From the NCBI GenBank assembly GCA_902596675.1, contig CACJUO010000002.1:1-64000 (forward strand): a stretch of 64,000 bases of DNA, written 5' to 3'. A program made the translations under genes and the position numbers. The notes under the pieces are model-generated. The model had not been told where the DNA came from and did no database searches. It saw only the letters and a list, made by a program, of their open reading frames with translations. Shown here piece after piece: positions 54,853-64,000 of this stretch. The stretch comes from an uncultured Pelagibacteraceae bacterium (GTDB lineage Bacteria; Pseudomonadota; Alphaproteobacteria; Pelagibacterales; Pelagibacteraceae). Each line of letters opens with the position of its first letter. Positions within the stretch are counted from its first letter, which is position 1.

Positions 54853-55896
54853 CTAATGATTTATAGATGATGAAAAGTTCCAAGAGCAGTCAAAACTAGG
54901 TATGTAAACTCTCGATAATTTTGTATTACCAAAATTTTTATTAAATACATTAAGCCAGTTATTTACTTGATCAGGTTTTTTATCCTGACTGCCTACTTGA
55001 GCTGTTATTACACCTTTTGGTTTTAATATTCTTTCTAAGGCATTCATATTTTTTGCAGCTAGGTCGATGCAGTACTGATCATCATTTAAATCAACAAATA
55101 TTTGATCATAAGTATTATCGTTAACTGTTTTAATACTTTCAAAAGCATCTCCCCAAACACAATTTACTGAATTTTTTTCTGTAGCTTTGTTTCCAATTTT
55201 TGCTAAGTGTTTGTCGCAAACATTTACAACCTCTGGATCTAATTCAAACCAATCAATAAAACCAAAATTTTTTGAAATACACTCTCTTGCAACACCTCCG
55301 TCACCTCCACCAATTATTGCAGCTTTTTCTTTATTTGAATTTAGATTAAGTCCAGAGTTAACAAATGTTGAGCTATATAAGTGCTCATCACTCTCAGCCA
55401 CCTGAATTTCATTATCTATGAAAAGTGCTTTACCAAACTGTTCTAATTCTAAAATTTCTATTTGCTGTCCAACCTCAGATTTAAATTTTTCTAAAATTTT
55501 TTTAACTATGTAAGACTTCTTTAGACCCGGAGAGCTATAATTGTCATGATAATGGTCTATAGTATCCCTATTAAATTTTTTAATAATTATATTTGTATGA
55601 TCAATTTCCTCTTTAATAACATCCAAAGCTACTAAAGGGGATACCTTTGCACATGTAAAAAAATCAAAACTTATTATGCCTTTTTCAGGAAATGTATGAA
55701 AACTTATATGGCTTTCTGCGAGTAAAGCTACAAGGGTAAATCCTTGTGGTTCAAACTTATATTTTGTTATTTCTAATACTGTTACTTTTGCAATTTTTGC
55801 AATTTTATAGACTAATTTTTCATAAAAAGCTGGATCGTATTCTTTCTTTGTTCCTAAAATATCAAGTGTAATATGTTCTCCAACTTTTGTTATCAT
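54853..55896 (-). CDS. Fused S-adenosylmethionine decarboxylase - spermidine synthase
   Basis: A 347-residue fusion. Residues 1-115 are a class 1b AdoMet decarboxylase (SpeD) with the self-cleavage site AESH (Ser62, becoming the pyruvoyl group), the processing His67 in SFHTFPE and the acid Cys82 in FFTCAK. Residues about 120-345 are a spermidine synthase (SpeE) with GGGDGG (196-201), ELDPEVV (acidic residue at 218), WGDAF (Asp250) and FVDLNDDQY with a catalytic Asp. The protein should make decarboxylated AdoMet and use it at once to aminopropylate putrescine. It lies one base after a class II aldolase gene and 57 bases before the amino-acid binding protein. Confidence 0.92.
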   Translation of the reverse strand: MITKVGEHITLDILGTKKEYDPAFYEKLVYKIAKIAKVTVLEITKYKFEPQGFTLVALLAESHISFHTFPEKGIISFDFFTCAKVSPLVALDVIKEEIDHTNIIIKKFNRDTIDHYHDNYSSPGLKKSYIVKKILEKFKSEVGQQIEILELEQFGKALFIDNEIQVAESDEHLYSSTFVNSGLNLNSNKEKAAIIGGGDGGVARECISKNFGFIDWFELDPEVVNVCDKHLAKIGNKATEKNSVNCVWGDAFESIKTVNDNTYDQIFVDLNDDQYCIDLAAKNMNALERILKPKGVITAQVGSQDKKPDQVNNWLNVFNKNFGNTKLSRVYIPSFDCSWNFSSSINH

Positions 55897-55897
55897 T

Positions 55898-56527
55898 CTA
55901 ATTTTTTTTATATGTTTTGCTCTTATTTAAAACTTTTTTCATTTCATTTAAACTTAAAAGTTTAGGCCGTCCTAATAAGAGAGCTTTGATGTACTGTTTG
56001 GCAAGATTATCTACTTCCTCTGCTAATTCAAATGCTTCTGCAAGACTAGATCCAAATGTGATCTGTCCATGATTGGCGATTAAACATGCTAATCTGTTTT
56101 TTAAAGCTTTAAGAATATTTTTTGATAATTCTCTCGTTCCGTAAGTTGCATATTTTGCACATTTAATATCTGATCCGCCAGCTAAGGCCACCATGTAATG
56201 AAATGCAGGTATTTTTTTATTATGTGTTGATAGAGCTGTAGCATTTGTAGAATGAGAATGAACTATTGCTTTAGCATTTTTCTTTGAAATATATATGTCT
56301 TGATGAAATCTCCATTCAGAAGAAGGTTTTTGTTTATTATTAAACTCACCTTTTAGATTTACAAAAACAATATCTTTTACTTTTAAAGATGAATATTTTT
56401 GACCTGAGGGTGTTATTAGAAATCCATTTTTATATCTTATTGAAATATTACCTGATCTTAATGCTGATAATTTTTTATCATTAAGCATTTTAGCAAATTT
56501 AATAATTTCTTTTTTTTGTAGTTTCAT
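55898..56527 (-). CDS. Class II aldolase (fuculose-phosphate aldolase/Ald2-like)
   Basis: The track's start at 56620 runs into the divergent BKACE gene; the ATG at 56527 (MKLQKKEIIKFAKML) gives 209 residues. Features: SGNISIRY, ITPSGQKYSSL, PSSEWRFHQDIY (catalytic Glu), zinc ligands in VHSHSTNATAL and ANHGQITFG, and the stretch HYMVALAGGSDIKCAKYATYGTRELS. It cleaves or forms a ketose 1-phosphate, giving dihydroxyacetone phosphate. Next to the SpeD-SpeE fusion, a role in salvage of methylthioadenosine (5-methylthioribulose- or 5-deoxyribulose-1-phosphate) is possible. Confidence 0.85.
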   Translation of the reverse strand: MKLQKKEIIKFAKMLNDKKLSALRSGNISIRYKNGFLITPSGQKYSSLKVKDIVFVNLKGEFNNKQKPSSEWRFHQDIYISKKNAKAIVHSHSTNATALSTHNKKIPAFHYMVALAGGSDIKCAKYATYGTRELSKNILKALKNRLACLIANHGQITFGSSLAEAFELAEEVDNLAKQYIKALLLGRPKLLSLNEMKKVLNKSKTYKKN

Positions 56528-56571
56528 TTTATTTATATATAATAATTCTAAAATTTGATTAGAATCAATAT

Positions 56572-57357
56572 ATGGCTTTTTTTCAACCAGATAAATTACC
56601 GAGTTTAATGGTTGCTCCAAATGGAGCTAGAAAAGTAAAGAAAGATCATCCTGAAGTACCTTTAACAATAAAAGAGACTGTTGAAGTAGCTAAAAACTGC
56701 TTTGAAGCAGGTGCTAAAGCAATCCATTTACATGTAAGAAATGATAAAGGAGAACATGTGCTTGATGCTGGCTTGTATAAAGAAGCTTTAAAAGAGTTAG
56801 AATTTCAAGTTCCAAATATGCACATACAAGTTACAACTGAGGCAATAGGAAAATATTCCCCAGATGATATGAGGAAACTTGCTTATGATGTTACCCCACC
56901 AGGAACTTCTATTGGCACATCTGAATTAATACCCTCCAGAAAGCCCACAATAGAAGATATTAAATTGTATAAATATTTGACTGAAGCTGGGACAAAAATT
57001 CAACATATTTTGTATAACCCAGATGACATAGATTTATTAATTGATCTTTTGAAAAAATCAGAAATTCCTGTAGATGGGGTGTGGTGTTTATTTGTAATTG
57101 GTCATTACACTGGCAAAATTAGTTATCCAGAAAAAATTCCTGAGTTCATTGAAAAAATGAAAGTAAATAGTATTAATTTTGACTGGTCTATATGTGCATT
57201 TGGAAAAGAAGAAATGAGTTGTCTAGAAAAGGCAGTTAGTCTAGGTGGCAAGATAAGAGTAGGATTTGAAAACTCTTTATTTATGCCGGACGGAGAAATT
57301 GCACCTGATAATCATTCAAAGATAAAAGCAGTAAATAAGCTTTTTAATTTATCTTAA
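56572..57357 (+). CDS. BKACE family beta-keto acid cleavage enzyme (DUF849)
   Basis: A 261-residue TIM-barrel enzyme. The N-terminus SLMVAPNGARKVKKDHPEVPLT, the zinc HxH in KAIHLHVRND (His52, His54), and GGKIRVGFENSLFMPDGEIA near the end match the 3-keto-5-aminohexanoate cleavage (Kce/BKACE) family, which uses acetyl-CoA to split a 3-oxo acid into acetoacetate and a new CoA ester. It is slightly shorter than the usual 275-300. Substrate is unknown. It is divergent from the aldolase and convergent with the aromatic hydroxylase (9-base overlap). Confidence 0.9.
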   Translation: MAFFQPDKLPSLMVAPNGARKVKKDHPEVPLTIKETVEVAKNCFEAGAKAIHLHVRNDKGEHVLDAGLYKEALKELEFQVPNMHIQVTTEAIGKYSPDDMRKLAYDVTPPGTSIGTSELIPSRKPTIEDIKLYKYLTEAGTKIQHILYNPDDIDLLIDLLKKSEIPVDGVWCLFVIGHYTGKISYPEKIPEFIEKMKVNSINFDWSICAFGKEEMSCLEKAVSLGGKIRVGFENSLFMPDGEIAPDNHSKIKAVNKLFNLS

Positions 57358-58809
57358 AATATTTGAATATTTTTTTAAAATCGAATTAAATTCTTGATTT
57401 GAATTAGCAGAACCCAAAATAAATCTATCTGGTCTTACTAAAATAGCTTTTGAATTAATATTTTTTAAATAGGCTGATATACTTTTTAAGTTATTCACTT
57501 TTAGTAAAGAACAATTTTTTATATTTTTTGCTTTAATTCCAGATGACATTATTATAATTCCTTTTTTTGAAAAATAATCGTCCAAATTTTTTTTATTTTT
57601 TAATTTAAATTGAGGAAAAATTTTTCCTCTATTTTTATCTTTCACATGTCCTATACCATCTCCTAATTTTGGTTTAATGGATTGCATACTTTTAATGCCT
57701 TTATCATTAGAACTTATATTTTTAGTTATTTGTATAGATTCTACTGCATTTACAAACTCTCCCATTCTCATAGTTGTTTCAATATATTCTTTAGCATTAA
57801 GCGACCTTTCAGATTGATATGAATTTAAAAGAGCCTCATTATGTTTAACCCTTAAGCATAATGAAATTTTCCATGCTAGATTCGATGCATCTCTTATTCC
57901 AGCGCACATTCCTTGTCCCATAAATGGAGGCATTAAATGAGCTGCATCACCAGCAATAAATATTCTACCATTACGCCATTTTCTCGCTATTTCTGATTTA
58001 AAGGTATAAACAGTTTTCCTTTCAAGTATAGCTTCACTTTTCTTAATCCAAGGTTTTAAAAAATTCCAAATATAATTTTCAGATAAAACTTTTTTTTCGC
58101 TAAGATTTTTTTTAATTGCAAATTCCCATCTTCTTCTTTTGCCGACATTTCTACAGTAAGTTGCCGGTTGTTTAGGATTTGAATACTGAATTGTCCTATC
58201 CGGTAAATTTTTTTTATTCTTTTTTAAAATTAGGTCTACAACTGCCCATTTCTGTGTAAACCCTAAGTTATTCATCTTTGTTTTCATTTGTCTTCTAGTA
58301 ATTGAATTGGCTCCATCACATCCAACTAAATATTTTGACTTTATATTAAAAATTTTTTTGCTTTTGGAATTTATATATTTGATATTTACATTATTTTTAG
58401 AATTTTTAATTTTTAATACATTGGCATTTTGCTCTATTAATACTTTTTTATAACTTTTTAATCTTTTTCTGAGCTGTTTTTCCAAATCTGGTTGATGGAA
58501 TCTATAACTTGGGTACCAACCATTATCTGTAATTTTTTTTGGTCTAGGCCAATCTAATATTACTTTTTGCTTCGAATTAACAAATTTTGTACCTTTGTTT
58601 ATGATAGTATATTTCAAAAAATTTTTTGTTATCCCTATAGTTTGAAATACCCTCATTATTTCATCATCAAAATGAACAGCTCTGGGTAATGGATAAAAAC
58701 TTTCTTCTTTATCAAGTATTAAAATTGAAAAACCATGCATAGCAAATAGATTTGCTAAAGTTCCCCCCGTAGGACCTAATCCTACAATAACTATATCAAA
58801 TTCTCTCAT
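57349..58809 (-). CDS. FAD-dependent aromatic hydroxylase (MhpA-like)
   Basis: A 486-residue class A flavin monooxygenase. Motifs: the dinucleotide fold VGLGPTGGTLANLFAMHG (residues 9-26), the DG motif VGCDGANSITRRQM (about residues 163-176) and the GD motif IFIAGDAAHLMPPFMGQGM (about residues 272-290), then CAGIRDASNLAWKI. This is closest in pattern to 3-(3-hydroxyphenyl)propionate hydroxylase and resorcinol-type hydroxylases that add an ortho hydroxyl. It is 100 or so residues shorter than E. coli MhpA at the C-terminus. It follows the extradiol dioxygenase gene by 11 bases, as expected for hydroxylation then ring cleavage. Confidence 0.87.
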   Translation of the reverse strand: MREFDIVIVGLGPTGGTLANLFAMHGFSILILDKEESFYPLPRAVHFDDEIMRVFQTIGITKNFLKYTIINKGTKFVNSKQKVILDWPRPKKITDNGWYPSYRFHQPDLEKQLRKRLKSYKKVLIEQNANVLKIKNSKNNVNIKYINSKSKKIFNIKSKYLVGCDGANSITRRQMKTKMNNLGFTQKWAVVDLILKKNKKNLPDRTIQYSNPKQPATYCRNVGKRRRWEFAIKKNLSEKKVLSENYIWNFLKPWIKKSEAILERKTVYTFKSEIARKWRNGRIFIAGDAAHLMPPFMGQGMCAGIRDASNLAWKISLCLRVKHNEALLNSYQSERSLNAKEYIETTMRMGEFVNAVESIQITKNISSNDKGIKSMQSIKPKLGDGIGHVKDKNRGKIFPQFKLKNKKNLDDYFSKKGIIIMSSGIKAKNIKNCSLLKVNNLKSISAYLKNINSKAILVRPDRFILGSANSNQEFNSILKKYSNILR

Positions 58810-58820
58810 TGATATTTTTA

Positions 58821-59795
58821 TTAATTTTTTTTATTTAAGTTAGAATATAACCAAGGACAATCGATTAACAATGGCGCTTGTTTTCCTTGAGATGCAGTCT
58901 CAAGTCTTTTATTTCTGAATTTCATTCTTTCTTCATCAGGTAAATAAAGTCTTTCATGTCCCCAAAAACTAGGTCCCTCAAATGTTTCTATAGGTTGCCA
59001 AGTTGCTGGGTCAATAATTCGCCCTCCCCAGCCATTTTCAATAAAAAAACCAGATGGTGTTATTGAATAAAAAGATGTCATGTAATCATTTGTATGTCTT
59101 CCCATTGTATAAGCGATTGCATTATCTTTATACTGTAATAGGTCATAACCTTGGCCAACATCATCAAGATTATTATATTCAACCATAAAATGGTGAAAGC
59201 CTGTTCTTCCAGAACCAAACAACGCTAAACTATGGTGCCTTCCATTAACATGAAAAAAACATAATGATATAGGTGTATGGCTATAATCACTAATTTTAAA
59301 GCCCATTATATCTCTGTAAAAAGGTATTAAATCGTCAATTTTTTTTACATGAACAACAGCGTGTCCCATTCCTAAAGCTCCTGTCTTAAATCCAGAAATA
59401 GGTCTTCCAGGCTTAAAAGGATCAGTATCTAACATTGGTTTATAAACAAGTTCTATATGGTTTCCTTGTGGATCATCAAAATAAATTAAATCTTCAACAA
59501 AACGTTTATCTGCTAAAGAAGATTTGCCTTGTTGAACAACTGTTTTATTTTTTTCAAGTTTTGATGCAAAAATTTGAAGATCTTCTTTTGTTTCAACTTC
59601 CCACCCTAAAAAACCAAGGTTATCTCCATTTTCGCCTGTGATAGTTAATCTTTGTTTTTGATCATCCATACGAAAAGATAAAATATCTTTTCCACGATCT
59701 ATCTTTTGCATACCTAAGTACTTTTGTGAATAAATAGACCAATCCTCAAATTTATCAGAATTAACTCCAATATAACTAAGTGCTTTAACTGCCAT
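58821..59795 (-). CDS. Extradiol ring-cleavage dioxygenase (VOC/type I, BphC-like)
   Basis: A 324-residue two-domain VOC protein. The iron triad of type I extradiol enzymes is intact: His145 in GMGHAVVHV, His201/202 in TGFHHFMVEY and Glu253 in GFFIENGWG. Second-sphere residues HHSLALF and DYMTSFY also agree. It should open a catechol-type ring next to the hydroxyls. The N-terminal domain (1-120) is the degenerate half (FDDPQGNHIELVY). The C-terminal tail of about 60 residues (WQPIETFEGPSFWGHERLYLP) is common in family members acting on larger catechols. Substrate unknown. Confidence 0.9.
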   Translation of the reverse strand: MAVKALSYIGVNSDKFEDWSIYSQKYLGMQKIDRGKDILSFRMDDQKQRLTITGENGDNLGFLGWEVETKEDLQIFASKLEKNKTVVQQGKSSLADKRFVEDLIYFDDPQGNHIELVYKPMLDTDPFKPGRPISGFKTGALGMGHAVVHVKKIDDLIPFYRDIMGFKISDYSHTPISLCFFHVNGRHHSLALFGSGRTGFHHFMVEYNNLDDVGQGYDLLQYKDNAIAYTMGRHTNDYMTSFYSITPSGFFIENGWGGRIIDPATWQPIETFEGPSFWGHERLYLPDEERMKFRNKRLETASQGKQAPLLIDCPWLYSNLNKKN

Positions 59796-59820
59796 TTTAT
59801 TAATATACTAGATTTTGAAA

Positions 59821-59846
59821 GAGCCCGCTATGAAATTAGCGGGCTC
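59821..59846 (-). terminator. GC-rich hairpin after the second dctP
   Basis: A 10-bp perfect stem, GAGCCCGCTA with TAGCGGGCTC, loop of 6 bases, 12 bases after the dctP stop. In the transcript it is followed by a weak U run (UUUC). It is one of the most GC-rich spots in the window. It probably ends part of the transcripts or protects dctP mRNA before the dioxygenase gene. Confidence 0.8.
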
Positions 59847-59858
59847 GGAATTAAACGA

Positions 59859-60872
59859 TTAACCGTCTATTTTAGAAATTACTTCTCTTGCTCTTTTTAA
59901 AACAGCATCTCCATCAAGGCCTTTGCCTTTCATTTCTGCTAACCAGTCTGCTTCGATTGGAGCTAATATTTTTTTGTATTCAGCTAGAACTGAGTCTGAT
60001 GCAACAGTAATCTCATGACCAGGCGTGTTTTCAACCTGTACCTTCATTTTAGCATTCTGAGTATCAATAAGATTAGAAGCCCAGTCTCCGAACCACTGAC
60101 CTGAATGTTTATCAATACATCCTTTTGCTGCTGAAGAAAGGCCATTATACTTACCTTCATTCATTATTAATCCAAATGTTGCATTAGTAATGTTAACCTC
60201 TGTATGATATTTTGTTACATCGAATAATCTAAATGAACCAATAGCTGTATAAGGAAATGGAGTTCCATCTATAACACCTTTGTTTAGTGCTTCAGAAGTT
60301 CCGGGCGCTGGTACTTTCACTCCTGTTGCTCCTAAAGTTTTAAGTATAGTTCCAGCTATTTTGCTTGGTACTCTCATTTTTTTACCTTTGAAATCTGCAG
60401 GTTTGACTACTTTTGTATCCTTCATATGGATTTGATATCCAGGGTTGGAATGTAAACCTATAAGTTTAATTCCAGCCATTTCTTTATCAAGGTAACCTTC
60501 CTCATAAAGAGTGTTCAAAGCTCTAGATCCTGCTTTTGAAGTTTTTGTTAAAAATGGTAATTCAACAACAGAACTTAGTGGGAATTGACCACCAATGTAT
60601 CCTAATACTGTCCAAGAGATATCTGCTACACCTGATGTTACAATATCATATTGTTTAGGAGGACTTCCTAAAACTCCACCTGCATACATTTTTACATTTA
60701 AAGCACCATTTGAGCATTTATTTACCTTATCTGCCCAAGCAGCTAAAATCTTACTTGCTATGAATGCTTTTGGTGGTTCAAAAGTTGCCAACTTTAATTC
60801 AGTAGCAGAAGCTGAACTAATAATGCCTAAGGAAAAGATTCCTAAAACAATTCCAATTAATTTTTTTTTCAT
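59859..60872 (-). CDS. dctP: TRAP transporter substrate-binding protein (DctP family)
   Basis: A 337-residue periplasmic binding protein with a signal peptide (MKKKLIGIVLGIFSLGIISSASA). The mature part starts TELKLATFEPPKAFIASKILAAW and includes the carboxylate-binding region ADFKGKKMRVPSKIAGTILKTLGATGV (Arg about residue 166). A strong AGAGGG precedes the ATG. Its permeases are divergent at 61840. Neighbouring ring-cleavage genes suggest an aromatic or phenolic acid ligand; binding proteins of this length and opening include aromatic-acid TRAP types, but this remains inference. Confidence 0.9.
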   Translation of the reverse strand: MKKKLIGIVLGIFSLGIISSASATELKLATFEPPKAFIASKILAAWADKVNKCSNGALNVKMYAGGVLGSPPKQYDIVTSGVADISWTVLGYIGGQFPLSSVVELPFLTKTSKAGSRALNTLYEEGYLDKEMAGIKLIGLHSNPGYQIHMKDTKVVKPADFKGKKMRVPSKIAGTILKTLGATGVKVPAPGTSEALNKGVIDGTPFPYTAIGSFRLFDVTKYHTEVNITNATFGLIMNEGKYNGLSSAAKGCIDKHSGQWFGDWASNLIDTQNAKMKVQVENTPGHEITVASDSVLAEYKKILAPIEADWLAEMKGKGLDGDAVLKRAREVISKIDG

Positions 60873-60920
60873 ATTAATTTCCCTCTGTTAAAAATAATTT
60901 AAGAAAGTCTATAGTGAAAT

Positions 60921-61772
60921 CTAGATGATTTCATCCTTAATTGTGTTAGATAAAATACCAATTTCAGTAATTTCTATCTCAACTTTATCACCAGGTTTCA
61001 TAAATATTGGCGGGTTTCTTTTAAAACCTACTCCTCCTGGAGTTCCAGTTACTAGAACATCTCCTGCTCTCCAAGCCATAGCTTTAGAAACATAAGAAAT
61101 TAAGATGGGTATATCAAATATGAGTTGGCTTAATTTTGCATTCTGCATGACCTCACCATTTAATCTAGTTTCAATAGTTAGATTTTTGTAATCTTTTATA
61201 TCTTCTGCTAAGACCATATGTGGACCGAAACTTCCTGTTTTTTCAAAGTTTTTCCCCATTCCAAATTGTCTTGTATGTCTTTGCCATTCTCTAACAGTAC
61301 TTTCGTTATAACAAGAATATCCAACTATGTGATTTAGTGCATCATCTGGTTTTATATGTTTTCCACCCTCACCCATAATTACCGCCATCTCGCCCTCAAA
61401 GTCTAAGCTTTGTGAGACAACTGGTCTTTGAATAGATTGCAAGTGTGCTGTCTGGCTTTCTGGAAATCTATGAAATATAACGGGATTTTCTTCTACTGTC
61501 CTATTAGTTTCTTTTACGTGTTCACTGTAATTTAAACCAACACATATAATTTTTCCTGGATTTGGTATTAATGGTAAATATTCAACATCTGAAACATTTA
61601 AATCTCCTGGATTATTTTTTGCATAATTTTTTGCTTCATGGATTCCTTTGTTTGAAATTAAATCTTTTAATGTGTTTGAATTAGAAATTTTTCCAGTCAA
61701 ATCTGTTATTTTATTATTGTTGATAATGCCAAATTTTTTTTGTCCGTTATGCGAAAAGGAAATAAATTTCAT
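60921..61772 (-). CDS. Fumarylacetoacetate hydrolase family protein
   Basis: A 283-residue FAH-fold protein. Conserved metal-site residues are in LDFEGEMAVIMGEGG (two Glu) and NESTVREWQRHTRQFGMGKNFEKTGSFGPHMV; the C-terminal GTPGGVGFKRNPPIFMKPGDKVEIEI is canonical. The start PGKIICVGLNYSEHVKE gives the lid region. Members hydrolyse or isomerise acylpyruvates, fumarylpyruvate, or hydrate 2-oxo-pent-4-enoates, all steps after aromatic ring opening. It is the first gene of the run FAH-dctP-dioxygenase-hydroxylase. Confidence 0.91.
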   Translation of the reverse strand: MKFISFSHNGQKKFGIINNNKITDLTGKISNSNTLKDLISNKGIHEAKNYAKNNPGDLNVSDVEYLPLIPNPGKIICVGLNYSEHVKETNRTVEENPVIFHRFPESQTAHLQSIQRPVVSQSLDFEGEMAVIMGEGGKHIKPDDALNHIVGYSCYNESTVREWQRHTRQFGMGKNFEKTGSFGPHMVLAEDIKDYKNLTIETRLNGEVMQNAKLSQLIFDIPILISYVSKAMAWRAGDVLVTGTPGGVGFKRNPPIFMKPGDKVEIEITEIGILSNTIKDEII

Positions 61773-61799
61773 AAGTAATACTTTCTGTTTTTGGTACAG

Positions 61800-61828
61800 T
61801 TTATATGGTAATGTTTACAGAATTTGAA
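61800..61828 (-). promoter_or_regulatory. Possible promoter of the FAH-dctP-dioxygenase operon
   Basis: Minus strand TTCAAA (61823-61828) and TATAAA (61800-61805), spacer 17 bases, in the 67-base gap to the divergent dctQ. The -35 is a 4/6 match only. Confidence 0.35.
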
Positions 61829-61839
61829 GCAACATTTTT

Positions 61840-62328
61840 ATGATTTCTAAAGTCAGTAGAGTTTTTGATTATTCAGCTATGGCTTCGGGTATTATATTAT
61901 TTTTATTAGCTGTATTAACTTTTTGTGATGTTTTTGGTAGACGTTTTTTAAACTCTCCAGTTACAGGCACAATTGAGCTAGTTGAGATAGGAATGGCTTT
62001 AGTTGCGTTTCTTGCTATGCCAAGAGCTTTTTTCTTAAATGCAAATGTATCAGCAGACTTTATTAATAATTTAAATTTAGGGATATTTAAAACTTATTTA
62101 GTGATTTTAAAGTTTATTTTAATGATATCAATAATGTCATTAATGGCATACTCGACAACTTTAACTTCTTACAAATTTATGAAAAATCAAAGAGTAACTA
62201 TCGATCTAGAACTTTATTTTTATCCATTTTATTTTATATGCTCTATTGGTATGTGGTTAAGTGTAGTTGCTATTCTAGTTTGGTTTGTAAAAACTCTTTT
62301 AGTAAATAATTTAGAGAAACAGGCTTAA
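61840..62328 (+). CDS. dctQ: TRAP transporter small permease (DctQ)
   Basis: A 162-residue protein with four hydrophobic segments and DctQ hallmarks: AVLTFCDVFGRRFLNSPVTGTIELVEIGMALVAFLAMPRAFFLNANVSADF. Overlaps dctM by one base. It completes a TRAP system with the divergent dctP across the 67-base intergenic region. Confidence 0.9.
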   Translation: MISKVSRVFDYSAMASGIILFLLAVLTFCDVFGRRFLNSPVTGTIELVEIGMALVAFLAMPRAFFLNANVSADFINNLNLGIFKTYLVILKFILMISIMSLMAYSTTLTSYKFMKNQRVTIDLELYFYPFYFICSIGMWLSVVAILVWFVKTLLVNNLEKQA

Positions 62329-63638
62329 TGGGAATTGAGGCTGTAATTAACGGTGGCTTAGCTTTCGCTGCGGTCTTAATTTTAATGGTGTTGAACGTTC
62401 CAATAGGTATTGCAATGTTAGTAGTTGGCTTTACTGGTTTTGCAATGATATCAGGTTTTGATCCAGCGATATTTGTGCTAGGAACTGCACCATTCGACGC
62501 TGTATCTAAATATACATTATCGGTTTTACCACTCTTTGTTTTGATGGGAAATCTTGCAAATAGCTCTAATCTATCAAGAAATCTTTATGATGCTGCTTAT
62601 GCAGTTGTAGGTCATTATAAAGGCGGACTAGCAATGTCAACTGTAGGTGCCTGTGCTGGTTTTGGAATGATTTGTGGATCATCAATTGCTACAGCTGCTA
62701 CAATGTCTCAAATGGCCGGTCCAGAAATGAGAAGACATGGATATAGTGATGCTCTAATAAGCGGTTCTATTGCATCAGGTGGAACATTAGGGATTATTAT
62801 TCCTCCAAGTGTAATATTAGTCATATATGCATATTTAACAGAACAATCTGTTCAGGAACTTTTTTTTGCTGCATTAATTCCTGGGATAATTGCTGTTGTA
62901 CTTTATATGATTGCAATAAGGGTTTATCTTTTAATTTATCCGTCACAAGGTGGATACGGAGTTAAGATGCCATTAAAAGAGAGAATTTCTGCTCTATCAA
63001 AAGTTTTTCCTATTTTCTTAATTTTTGTAATCATGATGGGCGGACTTTACTTAGGTTTTTTTACAGCAACTGAAAGTGCAGCTGTAGGAGTAATATTAGT
63101 ATTAATTTTTATATTTTTTAGAGGTCAATTAAAATTAAATCTTTTAAAAGATGCGGTTTGGACGACTATCAAAACGGTTGGATCATTATATTTAATTGTA
63201 ATAGGAGCTAGTATATTTAATTATCTAATAACTGTTACGCAATTGCCTTTTGCGGTAGTTGATTTTATTAATTATCTTGAACTTACTCCGCTAGGGGTAA
63301 TTCTAGTAATTTGTGCAATATATTTAATTCTTGGAACTGTAATGGACTCGTTAGCAATGTTATTTTTAACTATTCCAGTTTTCTATCCAGTAATAGTTGA
63401 TGCAGGAATAGATCCTGTGTGGTTTGGAATATTTGCGGTAATTGTTGTTGAATTTGGATTAATTTCTCCCCCAGTTGGTATGAATTTATTTGTAATTAAA
63501 GGTGTTATGCAGAAAACACCCTTGCAAACTATTTGGTTTGGTACGCTTCCTTTTTTAATGACTGATGTAATTAGACTTGCATTAATTATAGCTTTTCCAG
63601 CTATATGTTTGTATTTGCCTAGTCTGATGACTCCGTAG
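62328..63638 (+). CDS. dctM: TRAP transporter large permease (DctM)
   Basis: A 436-residue membrane protein with about twelve spans. Motifs: LNVPIGIAMLVVGFTGFAMI, SVLPLFVLMGNLANSS, CGSSIATAATMSQMAGPEMRRHGYSDALISG and GGTLGIIIPPSVILVIYAYLTE. Paralogue of the DctM at 32565 with a shared plan. Sodium-coupled uptake is the family mechanism. Ends with a 20-base overlap with the convergent gene. Confidence 0.94.
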   Translation: MGIEAVINGGLAFAAVLILMVLNVPIGIAMLVVGFTGFAMISGFDPAIFVLGTAPFDAVSKYTLSVLPLFVLMGNLANSSNLSRNLYDAAYAVVGHYKGGLAMSTVGACAGFGMICGSSIATAATMSQMAGPEMRRHGYSDALISGSIASGGTLGIIIPPSVILVIYAYLTEQSVQELFFAALIPGIIAVVLYMIAIRVYLLIYPSQGGYGVKMPLKERISALSKVFPIFLIFVIMMGGLYLGFFTATESAAVGVILVLIFIFFRGQLKLNLLKDAVWTTIKTVGSLYLIVIGASIFNYLITVTQLPFAVVDFINYLELTPLGVILVICAIYLILGTVMDSLAMLFLTIPVFYPVIVDAGIDPVWFGIFAVIVVEFGLISPPVGMNLFVIKGVMQKTPLQTIWFGTLPFLMTDVIRLALIIAFPAICLYLPSLMTP

Positions 63639-63957
63639 AATTATTAAAATTTCGAAAATAATTAAAATAAATTAATCCAAAAATAGCTCCAACTAGGATC
63701 AATATATATTGATAAAACTTCAAAAGTACAAATACCACTGGTAAATCTTTTCCAGGGTTCTGAGCAATAAAATTTTCGGTGCCGTCTTTGTATAAGTCAA
63801 TCGGTCCAAAAGTTGCATATAGACCATAAATAAAAATATAAATACAAGGTAATATTGAAATTAATAAAAAAATTTTATTTTTTTTAATTAATTTTAATAA
63901 GTTTGCAGAGACACCGACTAAGACTAAACCAATTAAAGATAATATTAAAGGATTCAT
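63619..63957 (-). CDS. Three-span membrane protein of unknown function
   Basis: A 112-residue protein with three hydrophobic segments (about residues 3-20, 27-47 and 76-98). I take the ATG at 63957 and not the track's ATG at 63963 because it overlaps by one base (TAATG) the stop of a frame entering from the right edge and has AGGTG 7 bases ahead. Between spans 2 and 3 is an exposed loop GPIDLYKDGTENFIAQNPGKDLP. Family not recognised. Confidence 0.6.
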   Translation of the reverse strand: MNPLILSLIGLVLVGVSANLLKLIKKNKIFLLISILPCIYIFIYGLYATFGPIDLYKDGTENFIAQNPGKDLPVVFVLLKFYQYILILVGAIFGLIYFNYFRNFNNSTESSD

Positions 63958-64000
63958 TACCATACACCTATCATAATTCCATCTTCTTTGGTATAATCTC
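63957..64000 (-). CDS. Possible C-terminal end of a gene entering from the right edge
   Basis: Minus-strand frame from the window edge reads DYTKEDGIMIGVW then TAA, whose last base is the first base of the next ATG. The 1-nt TAATG junction is used many times in this window, which favours this frame over the other two. Only 13 residues are visible, so product is unknown. Confidence 0.4.
   Translation of the reverse strand, partial: DYTKEDGIMIGVW

Follow-up and report, generated by a model that had tools for sequence, protein, structure and literature searches.

A candidate gene block for aromatic-acid ring cleavage in SAR11 bacteria

A compact block of seven genes in an uncultured Pelagibacteraceae (SAR11) bacterium may encode a route for the breakdown of an aromatic carboxylic acid, probably a phenolic one, in which a trihydroxylated ring would be opened and the product split by an acylpyruvate-type FAH enzyme; on the sequence evidence we put the chances of this reading at about even. 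The block lies near the end of a window of 64,000 nucleotides (bases 1-64000 of contig 2, C2, of a 1.08 Mb genome that is 74% complete), and the nearest genomes were those of uncultured Pelagibacteraceae single cells, with dioxygenase identity of up to 99%. It encodes a type I extradiol dioxygenase of the VOC superfamily, a class A flavin monooxygenase (FMO), an FAH-superfamily protein, a TRAP transporter (DctP, DctQ and DctM) and a BKACE-fold protein (Table 1). An initial annotation, made from the sequence, had listed these seven genes, and an open reading frame check and profile searches found all of them intact, in the positions and families that it had assigned. When six of the genes were compared with six relatives, dN/dS values of 0.01-0.21 were obtained; the six tested genes are thus under strong purifying selection and are working genes.

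Enzymes and transporter of the block

The profile search detected Glyoxalase and BphC_D1 domains in the VOC protein, a two-domain chain with its iron site in the second domain, and residues H145, H202 and E253 lined up with the ligands of BphC, NahC and XylE. An equivalent of the second-sphere histidine (H188) and the RHTND...SFY motif were also found in common with BphC. In the tree, the protein was placed within the extradiol family beside BphC, NahC and HsaC, in its own long-tailed clade (support 100/99); this tree took in no non-dioxygenase VOC protein, and the PDB matches were nearly all named dioxygenases. The full metal triad and the extradiol type claimed by the initial annotation were therefore borne out by a complete iron site and by this placement, and the clustering with non-dioxygenase VOC proteins that would have told against the latter was not seen. 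As judged from these features, the VOC protein is a type I extradiol dioxygenase with predicted ring-cleavage activity. It has the two-domain type I architecture, iron ligands and second-sphere residues of BphC (2,3-dihydroxybiphenyl 1,2-dioxygenase, PDB 1HAN), but it is ~35-38% identical to that enzyme, which is without the long C-terminal tail, and falls in a separate clade; with the BphC equivalog TIGR03213 it scored 252.6 bits, below the 366-bit cut-off.

The FAH protein matched FAA_hydrolase (E=4e-61) and scored highest to the diketo-acid hydrolase and HpaG domains of the acylpyruvase/HpaG branch, while no MhpD model matched. FAH-superfamily hydrolases (acylpyruvases) split 1,3-diketones. 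No BphD/MhpC-type hydrolase and no MhpE-type aldolase was found over cut-off in eight genomes, namely that of the window and seven block-bearing relatives at least 90% complete. The lack of an MhpC-type alpha/beta hydrolase, as claimed from the window, was thus supported, with MhpE likewise unrecognised, and because neither type was found, a standard meta pathway is unlikely. The initial annotation had also assigned the missing MhpC step to the FAH protein. Its role as an enzyme acting on the ring-cleavage product was retained, but the acylpyruvase/HpaG scores favour the splitting of a 1,3-diketone, derived from a trihydroxylated ring, over substitution for MhpC. Taken together, the diketo-acid likeness and the absence of lower meta enzymes point to a trihydroxy ring, its extradiol cleavage and an FAH split. 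Compared with the Mhp pathway (MhpABCDE) for 3-(3-hydroxyphenyl)propionate, the block has in common an MhpA-like hydroxylase and an extradiol step, and differs in that the MhpC and MhpE types were unrecognised in the SAR11 genomes studied here. MhpB is a type III (LigB) extradiol enzyme, unlike the type I enzyme of the block.

The monooxygenase matched FAD_binding_3 (E=2e-59) and reached 503.5 bits with NCBIfam NF004829, for which the cut-off is 390, and its structural neighbours included 2-hydroxybiphenyl 3-monooxygenase. The subfamily score and the neighbours support a class A FMO, in agreement with the MhpA-like flavin hydroxylase and the hydroxylation step proposed earlier. In the TRAP system, DctP and DctM were recognised with E-values of 4e-42 and 3e-90, respectively. 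The best PDB sequence matches of DctP (E 6e-51 to 5e-43) stood apart from most of the remaining matches, and the titles of these entries named TarP with coumarate, cinnamate, caffeate, ferulate or 4-hydroxyphenylacetate; a marine metagenome solute-binding protein (SBP) titled 'specific for aromatic acid ligands' was also among them. DctP is therefore predicted to be a TarP-type SBP that binds aromatic acids, as its closest relatives do, and this grouping supports the earlier claim of aromatic-acid import. TarPQM transporters were the top matches of DctP in both the sequence and the structure library, although the identity was roughly 30% and the ligand here is a predicted one. A literature search on the ligands of the matched TRAP entries turned up nothing direct.

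The seventh gene had been annotated as BKACE. The fold family and the zinc site (H52, H54 and E233) were confirmed, and the equivalent of Arg226 of Kce was retained, but the catalytic Glu and Asp were missing and the protein belongs to a divergent clade. Relative to Kce (PDB 2Y7D), with which it has the fold, zinc ligands and arginine in common, the substitutions were Glu143 to Ile146, Asp231 to Asn234, Ser82 to Thr88 and Glu14 to Arg20. In BKACE15, E171 is the catalytic base and a leucine variant is inactive (PMC11961710). We equate E171 with Glu143 of Kce, as R254 and Arg226 are offset by the same 28 positions. Canonical BKACE chemistry is thus doubtful, and a functional BKACE name appears unwarranted; a canonical step (acetoacetate plus acyl-CoA), which we had first favoured, was dropped for lack of the catalytic Glu and Asp. 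The compared close alphaproteobacterial relatives were likewise without the catalytic Glu, and because this loss of catalytic residues is common to them, the protein and its relatives form, by their sequences, an enzyme type of their own with the BKACE fold, as yet uncharacterised. Relatives at ~40% identity were found in unrelated contexts with aminotransferases. An alphaproteobacterial BKACE-fold group (L184-L194, L207-L209) had the zinc ligands without the catalytic Glu/Asp, some of its members lying beside class III aminotransferases.

In the route that we propose, DctPQM would import an aromatic acid, which may arrive as a sulfate ester and would in that case be desulfated in the cytoplasm by the neighbouring sulfatase. 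The FMO would add a third hydroxyl to a ring that already carries two, and the dioxygenase would open the resulting trihydroxy ring next to a pair of adjacent hydroxyls, with a 2,4-dioxo (acylpyruvate-like) acid as the product. This acid would be split by the FAH enzyme into pyruvate and a smaller acid; as the smaller acid would enter central metabolism directly, MhpC, MhpD and MhpE would not be needed. The BKACE-fold zinc enzyme would probably process the smaller acid or an intermediate, by a mechanism other than the acetyl-CoA-dependent one of BKACE. The orcinol and dinitrotoluene pathways are among the precedents for such a route. For its first two steps, a precedent is provided by the A-ring pathways of FdeE/FdeC (naringenin) and IfcA/IfcB (isoflavone), in which a polyhydroxylated ring is hydroxylated once more by a class A FMO and then opened by a VOC-type protein annotated as glyoxalase (PMC11069340). 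These pathways, compared here by their descriptions, differ in acting on soil and plant flavonoids and, in Variovorax, in the use of cupins in later steps.

Several observations weigh against the trihydroxy-ring route. The third FAH metal ligand is Glu157, a position held by Asp in most relatives. A 2,4-dioxo acid would arise if a third hydroxyl were present on the cleaved ring, and the need for a trihydroxy ring comes from chemical reasoning. Weaker alpha/beta-hydrolase matches were present (the best reached 81 bits, where the cut-off is 462), so that the absence of the lower pathway depends on the model cut-offs. The predicted structure of DctP (AlphaFold) was poor, with a pLDDT of 49.5, and the choice of an aromatic ligand therefore rests on the sequence ranking, the fold search having served only to supply entry titles and to cross-check that ranking. 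Finally, the optional sulfate-ester step is weakened by the detection of a formylglycine-generating enzyme (FGE, PF03781) in one of eight genomes, anSME-type enzymes not having been searched.

Table 1. Features of the block and its immediate surroundings in the window
Feature	Position	Strand	Remarks
BKACE-fold (PF05853) zinc enzyme, divergent clade	56572..57357	+	His52, His54, Glu233, Arg229 kept; PF05853 E=1e-44
Class A flavin monooxygenase (FMO), MhpA-like subfamily NF004829	57349..58809	-	GxGxxG at 10-15, DG motif 164, GD motif 287
Type I extradiol (VOC) dioxygenase	58821..59795	-	Fe ligands His145/His202/Glu253; ~40 extra C-terminal residues common to own clade
DctP, TRAP solute-binding protein, TarP (aromatic-acid) branch (predicted)	59859..60872	-	Profile search, PDB sequence ranking
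FAH-superfamily hydrolase/decarboxylase	60921..61772	-	His85xxGlu88 dyad, Glu126, Glu128, Lys174; Glu157 in place of third-ligand Asp
Intergenic stretch, 67 bases, between divergent FAH and DctQ genes	61773..61839		Presumed promoter region; function inferred
DctQ, TRAP small permease	61840..62328	+	Profile search
DctM, TRAP large permease	62328..63638	+	Profile search
Small membrane-like protein, no family	63619..63963	-	Overlaps sulfatase gene end; in only one of two flank types
S1 sulfatase gene, 3' end in window	63957..64000	-	Body past window: contig C2 63957-65540 (L210 558-2141); CxPSR formylglycine motif

Conservation in SAR11 and related blocks in other Alphaproteobacteria

The order DctM-DctQ / FAH-DctP-VOC-FMO / BKACE-like was kept across 80 Pelagibacteraceae loci, judged only where the contig was long enough, and the sole exception was L057, a 5 kb contig with no full-length FMO. 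The expected co-conservation of the block therefore held, and the BKACE-like protein was found in every locus whose contig reaches its position. Within the genus, the dioxygenase gene was detected in 52 of 399 genomes (~13%), many of them incomplete. The flank on the BKACE side differed between the locus groups L034-L083 and L084-L113, which sets a boundary of the unit on that side.

The dioxygenase clade with the common C-terminal extension also included proteins from Martelella, Rhizobium, Pannonibacter and Roseinatronobacter, putative Bradyrhizobium-like genomes and a putative SAR116-like one (G356). The protein of the last of these appeared as sister with weak support (84/55). The genes DctQ-DctM-DctP-VOC-FMO-FAH were found in that order in Martelella sp. 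AD-3, M. lutilitoris and G876, and Pannonibacter had FMO, TRAP, VOC and FAH genes. Roseinatronobacter carried DctQM, VOC and FAH genes with a distant FMO and a standard-length BKACE nearby, and Rhizobium ACO-34A, G504, G622, G831 and G664 had VOC, FMO and FAH genes with no TRAP system close by. The SAR116-like genome was rejected as a TRAP-linked case; it had the dioxygenase and FMO only, beside what we read as a tungstate-type ABC transporter.

The plasmid clusters of the two Martelella strains contain the same components in one run, with identities of 58-59% for the dioxygenase, 41-42% for the FMO and 46% for the FAH protein. Their genes all lie on one strand, with an adjoining regulator of their own and no BKACE-like gene, whereas in the SAR11 version DctQM are divergently oriented, a BKACE-like gene and a neighbouring sulfatase gene are present, and the block itself contains no regulator. 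By gene content and order, TRAP-VOC-FMO-FAH is a recurring alphaproteobacterial unit of which SAR11 has its own arrangement. An aromatic block had been called unexpected in a minimal genome; its presence in SAR11 stands, but it is not unique to SAR11, as the Martelella, Pannonibacter and G876 versions indicate. In Paraburkholderia and Variovorax (L164 7357-7923, L166 8433-8987), a small one-domain VOC protein, not a two-domain dioxygenase, was observed beside the same FMO and FAH genes.

Adjacent sulfatase and alternative routes

In 72/72 loci whose contigs reach far enough, a sulfatase gene adjoined DctM, and it did so in both genomic contexts (our count from the locus table); the window ends within this gene, which is why the initial annotation had missed it. 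The protein has the motif VCGPSR, and its L084 homologue matched PF00884 with 182.7 bits; the best solved relatives of this homologue were the 'sulfatase family' entries 4UPI and 4UPL (E near 1e-180), followed by phosphonate monoester hydrolases. All six inspected homologues (50-54% identical) were encoded near tripartite transporters (TRAP, TAXI-TRAP or TTT), and this proximity suggests that a substrate is imported and its ester then cleaved inside the cell. The formylglycine-type sulfatase was present in G000 and seven relatives, and one of these eight had the PF03781 enzyme.

The substrate may thus be a sulfated phenolic acid, with the sulfatase as the true first intracellular step before hydroxylation, ring cleavage and FAH hydrolysis, a reading which extends the trihydroxy-ring route and does not exclude it. 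The fixed position beside DctM, the CxPSR motif and the transporter neighbourhoods argue for this, but in the genome of the window the gene lies directly next to mtnA in the same orientation, and it may be co-transcribed with the mtn genes; phosphonate monoester hydrolases and PehA are also among the relatives of the sulfatase. The scarcity of FGE and the lack of a close sulfatase in the other alphaproteobacterial versions (that of Martelella is 26% identical) count against it as well, and we consider it possible but somewhat unlikely.

A short meta pathway, as put forward in the initial annotation, was weighed as a competing explanation. Here the FMO would ortho-hydroxylate a monohydroxylated aryl acid (e.g. 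a 3-hydroxyphenyl acid), the dioxygenase would yield a 2-hydroxy-6-oxo-dienoate, and the FAH protein would carry out MhpC-type hydrolysis or MhpD-type hydration. It is consistent with the name of the FMO's NCBIfam subfamily, 3-(3-hydroxyphenyl)propionate hydroxylase, with 2-hydroxybiphenyl 3-monooxygenase as a structural neighbour, and with the close relation of DctP to marine aromatic-acid SBPs. The lower pathway makes it unlikely: with neither MhpE nor BphD/MhpC over cut-off in the eight genomes, hydroxypentadienoate would be stranded, and the FAH protein resembles the diketo-acid/HpaG types and matched no MhpD model. Detoxification or transformation of aromatics (e.g. quinones or algal phenolics) in place of carbon supply would fit the occurrence of the dioxygenase in ~13% of the genus genomes searched and the streamlining of these genomes, but is very unlikely, as a dedicated TRAP importer was co-inherited in every locus with room for it and an importer fits nutrition better.

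Genomic setting and biological meaning

In the window's lineage, the block and sulfatase were set between 54853-56620 and L210 2141-4083, among SpeD/SpeE-like, class II aldolase, mtnA-like and MTA-phosphorylase-like genes. The class II aldolase (55898-56620) was rejected as a member of the block, being absent or replaced in many loci; it neighbours the SpeD/SpeE-like gene, while mtnA and the MTA-phosphorylase-like gene lie past the window. These names, other than that of the aldolase, are our own reading of the sequences, by which the flanks look like a methylthioadenosine salvage neighbourhood. At L037 13228-15393, and in many other loci, a long aldolase/short-chain-dehydrogenase-like fusion stood in place of the class II aldolase. 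The genes beyond the sulfatase differed in the second locus group, many loci of which had urease genes on the BKACE flank; in L084 (1097-3538), a Gly/Met/Ala-rich repetitive protein of 813 amino acids was encoded two genes from the sulfatase.

SAR11 bacteria are commonly portrayed as users of small and simple compounds, and our literature search, of incomplete coverage, found no paper describing SAR11 aromatic ring cleavage or this block. In its fullest form, the proposal would be that a SAR11 lineage combines TarP-type import of sulfated phenolic acids and cytoplasmic desulfation with a shortened ring mineralisation (FMO, dioxygenase, acylpyruvate-type FAH and a non-canonical BKACE-fold enzyme) that bypasses the lower meta pathway, a combination that we regard as quite unlikely. 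The enzyme set is compact and directly testable; the ligand could be read from the SBP, and the pathway from the three enzymes once purified. The block is conserved and selected in roughly one in eight of the genus genomes searched and, if the proposed function is true, it would extend the diet of SAR11 to part of the aromatic fraction of marine dissolved matter, perhaps to sulfated phenolics.

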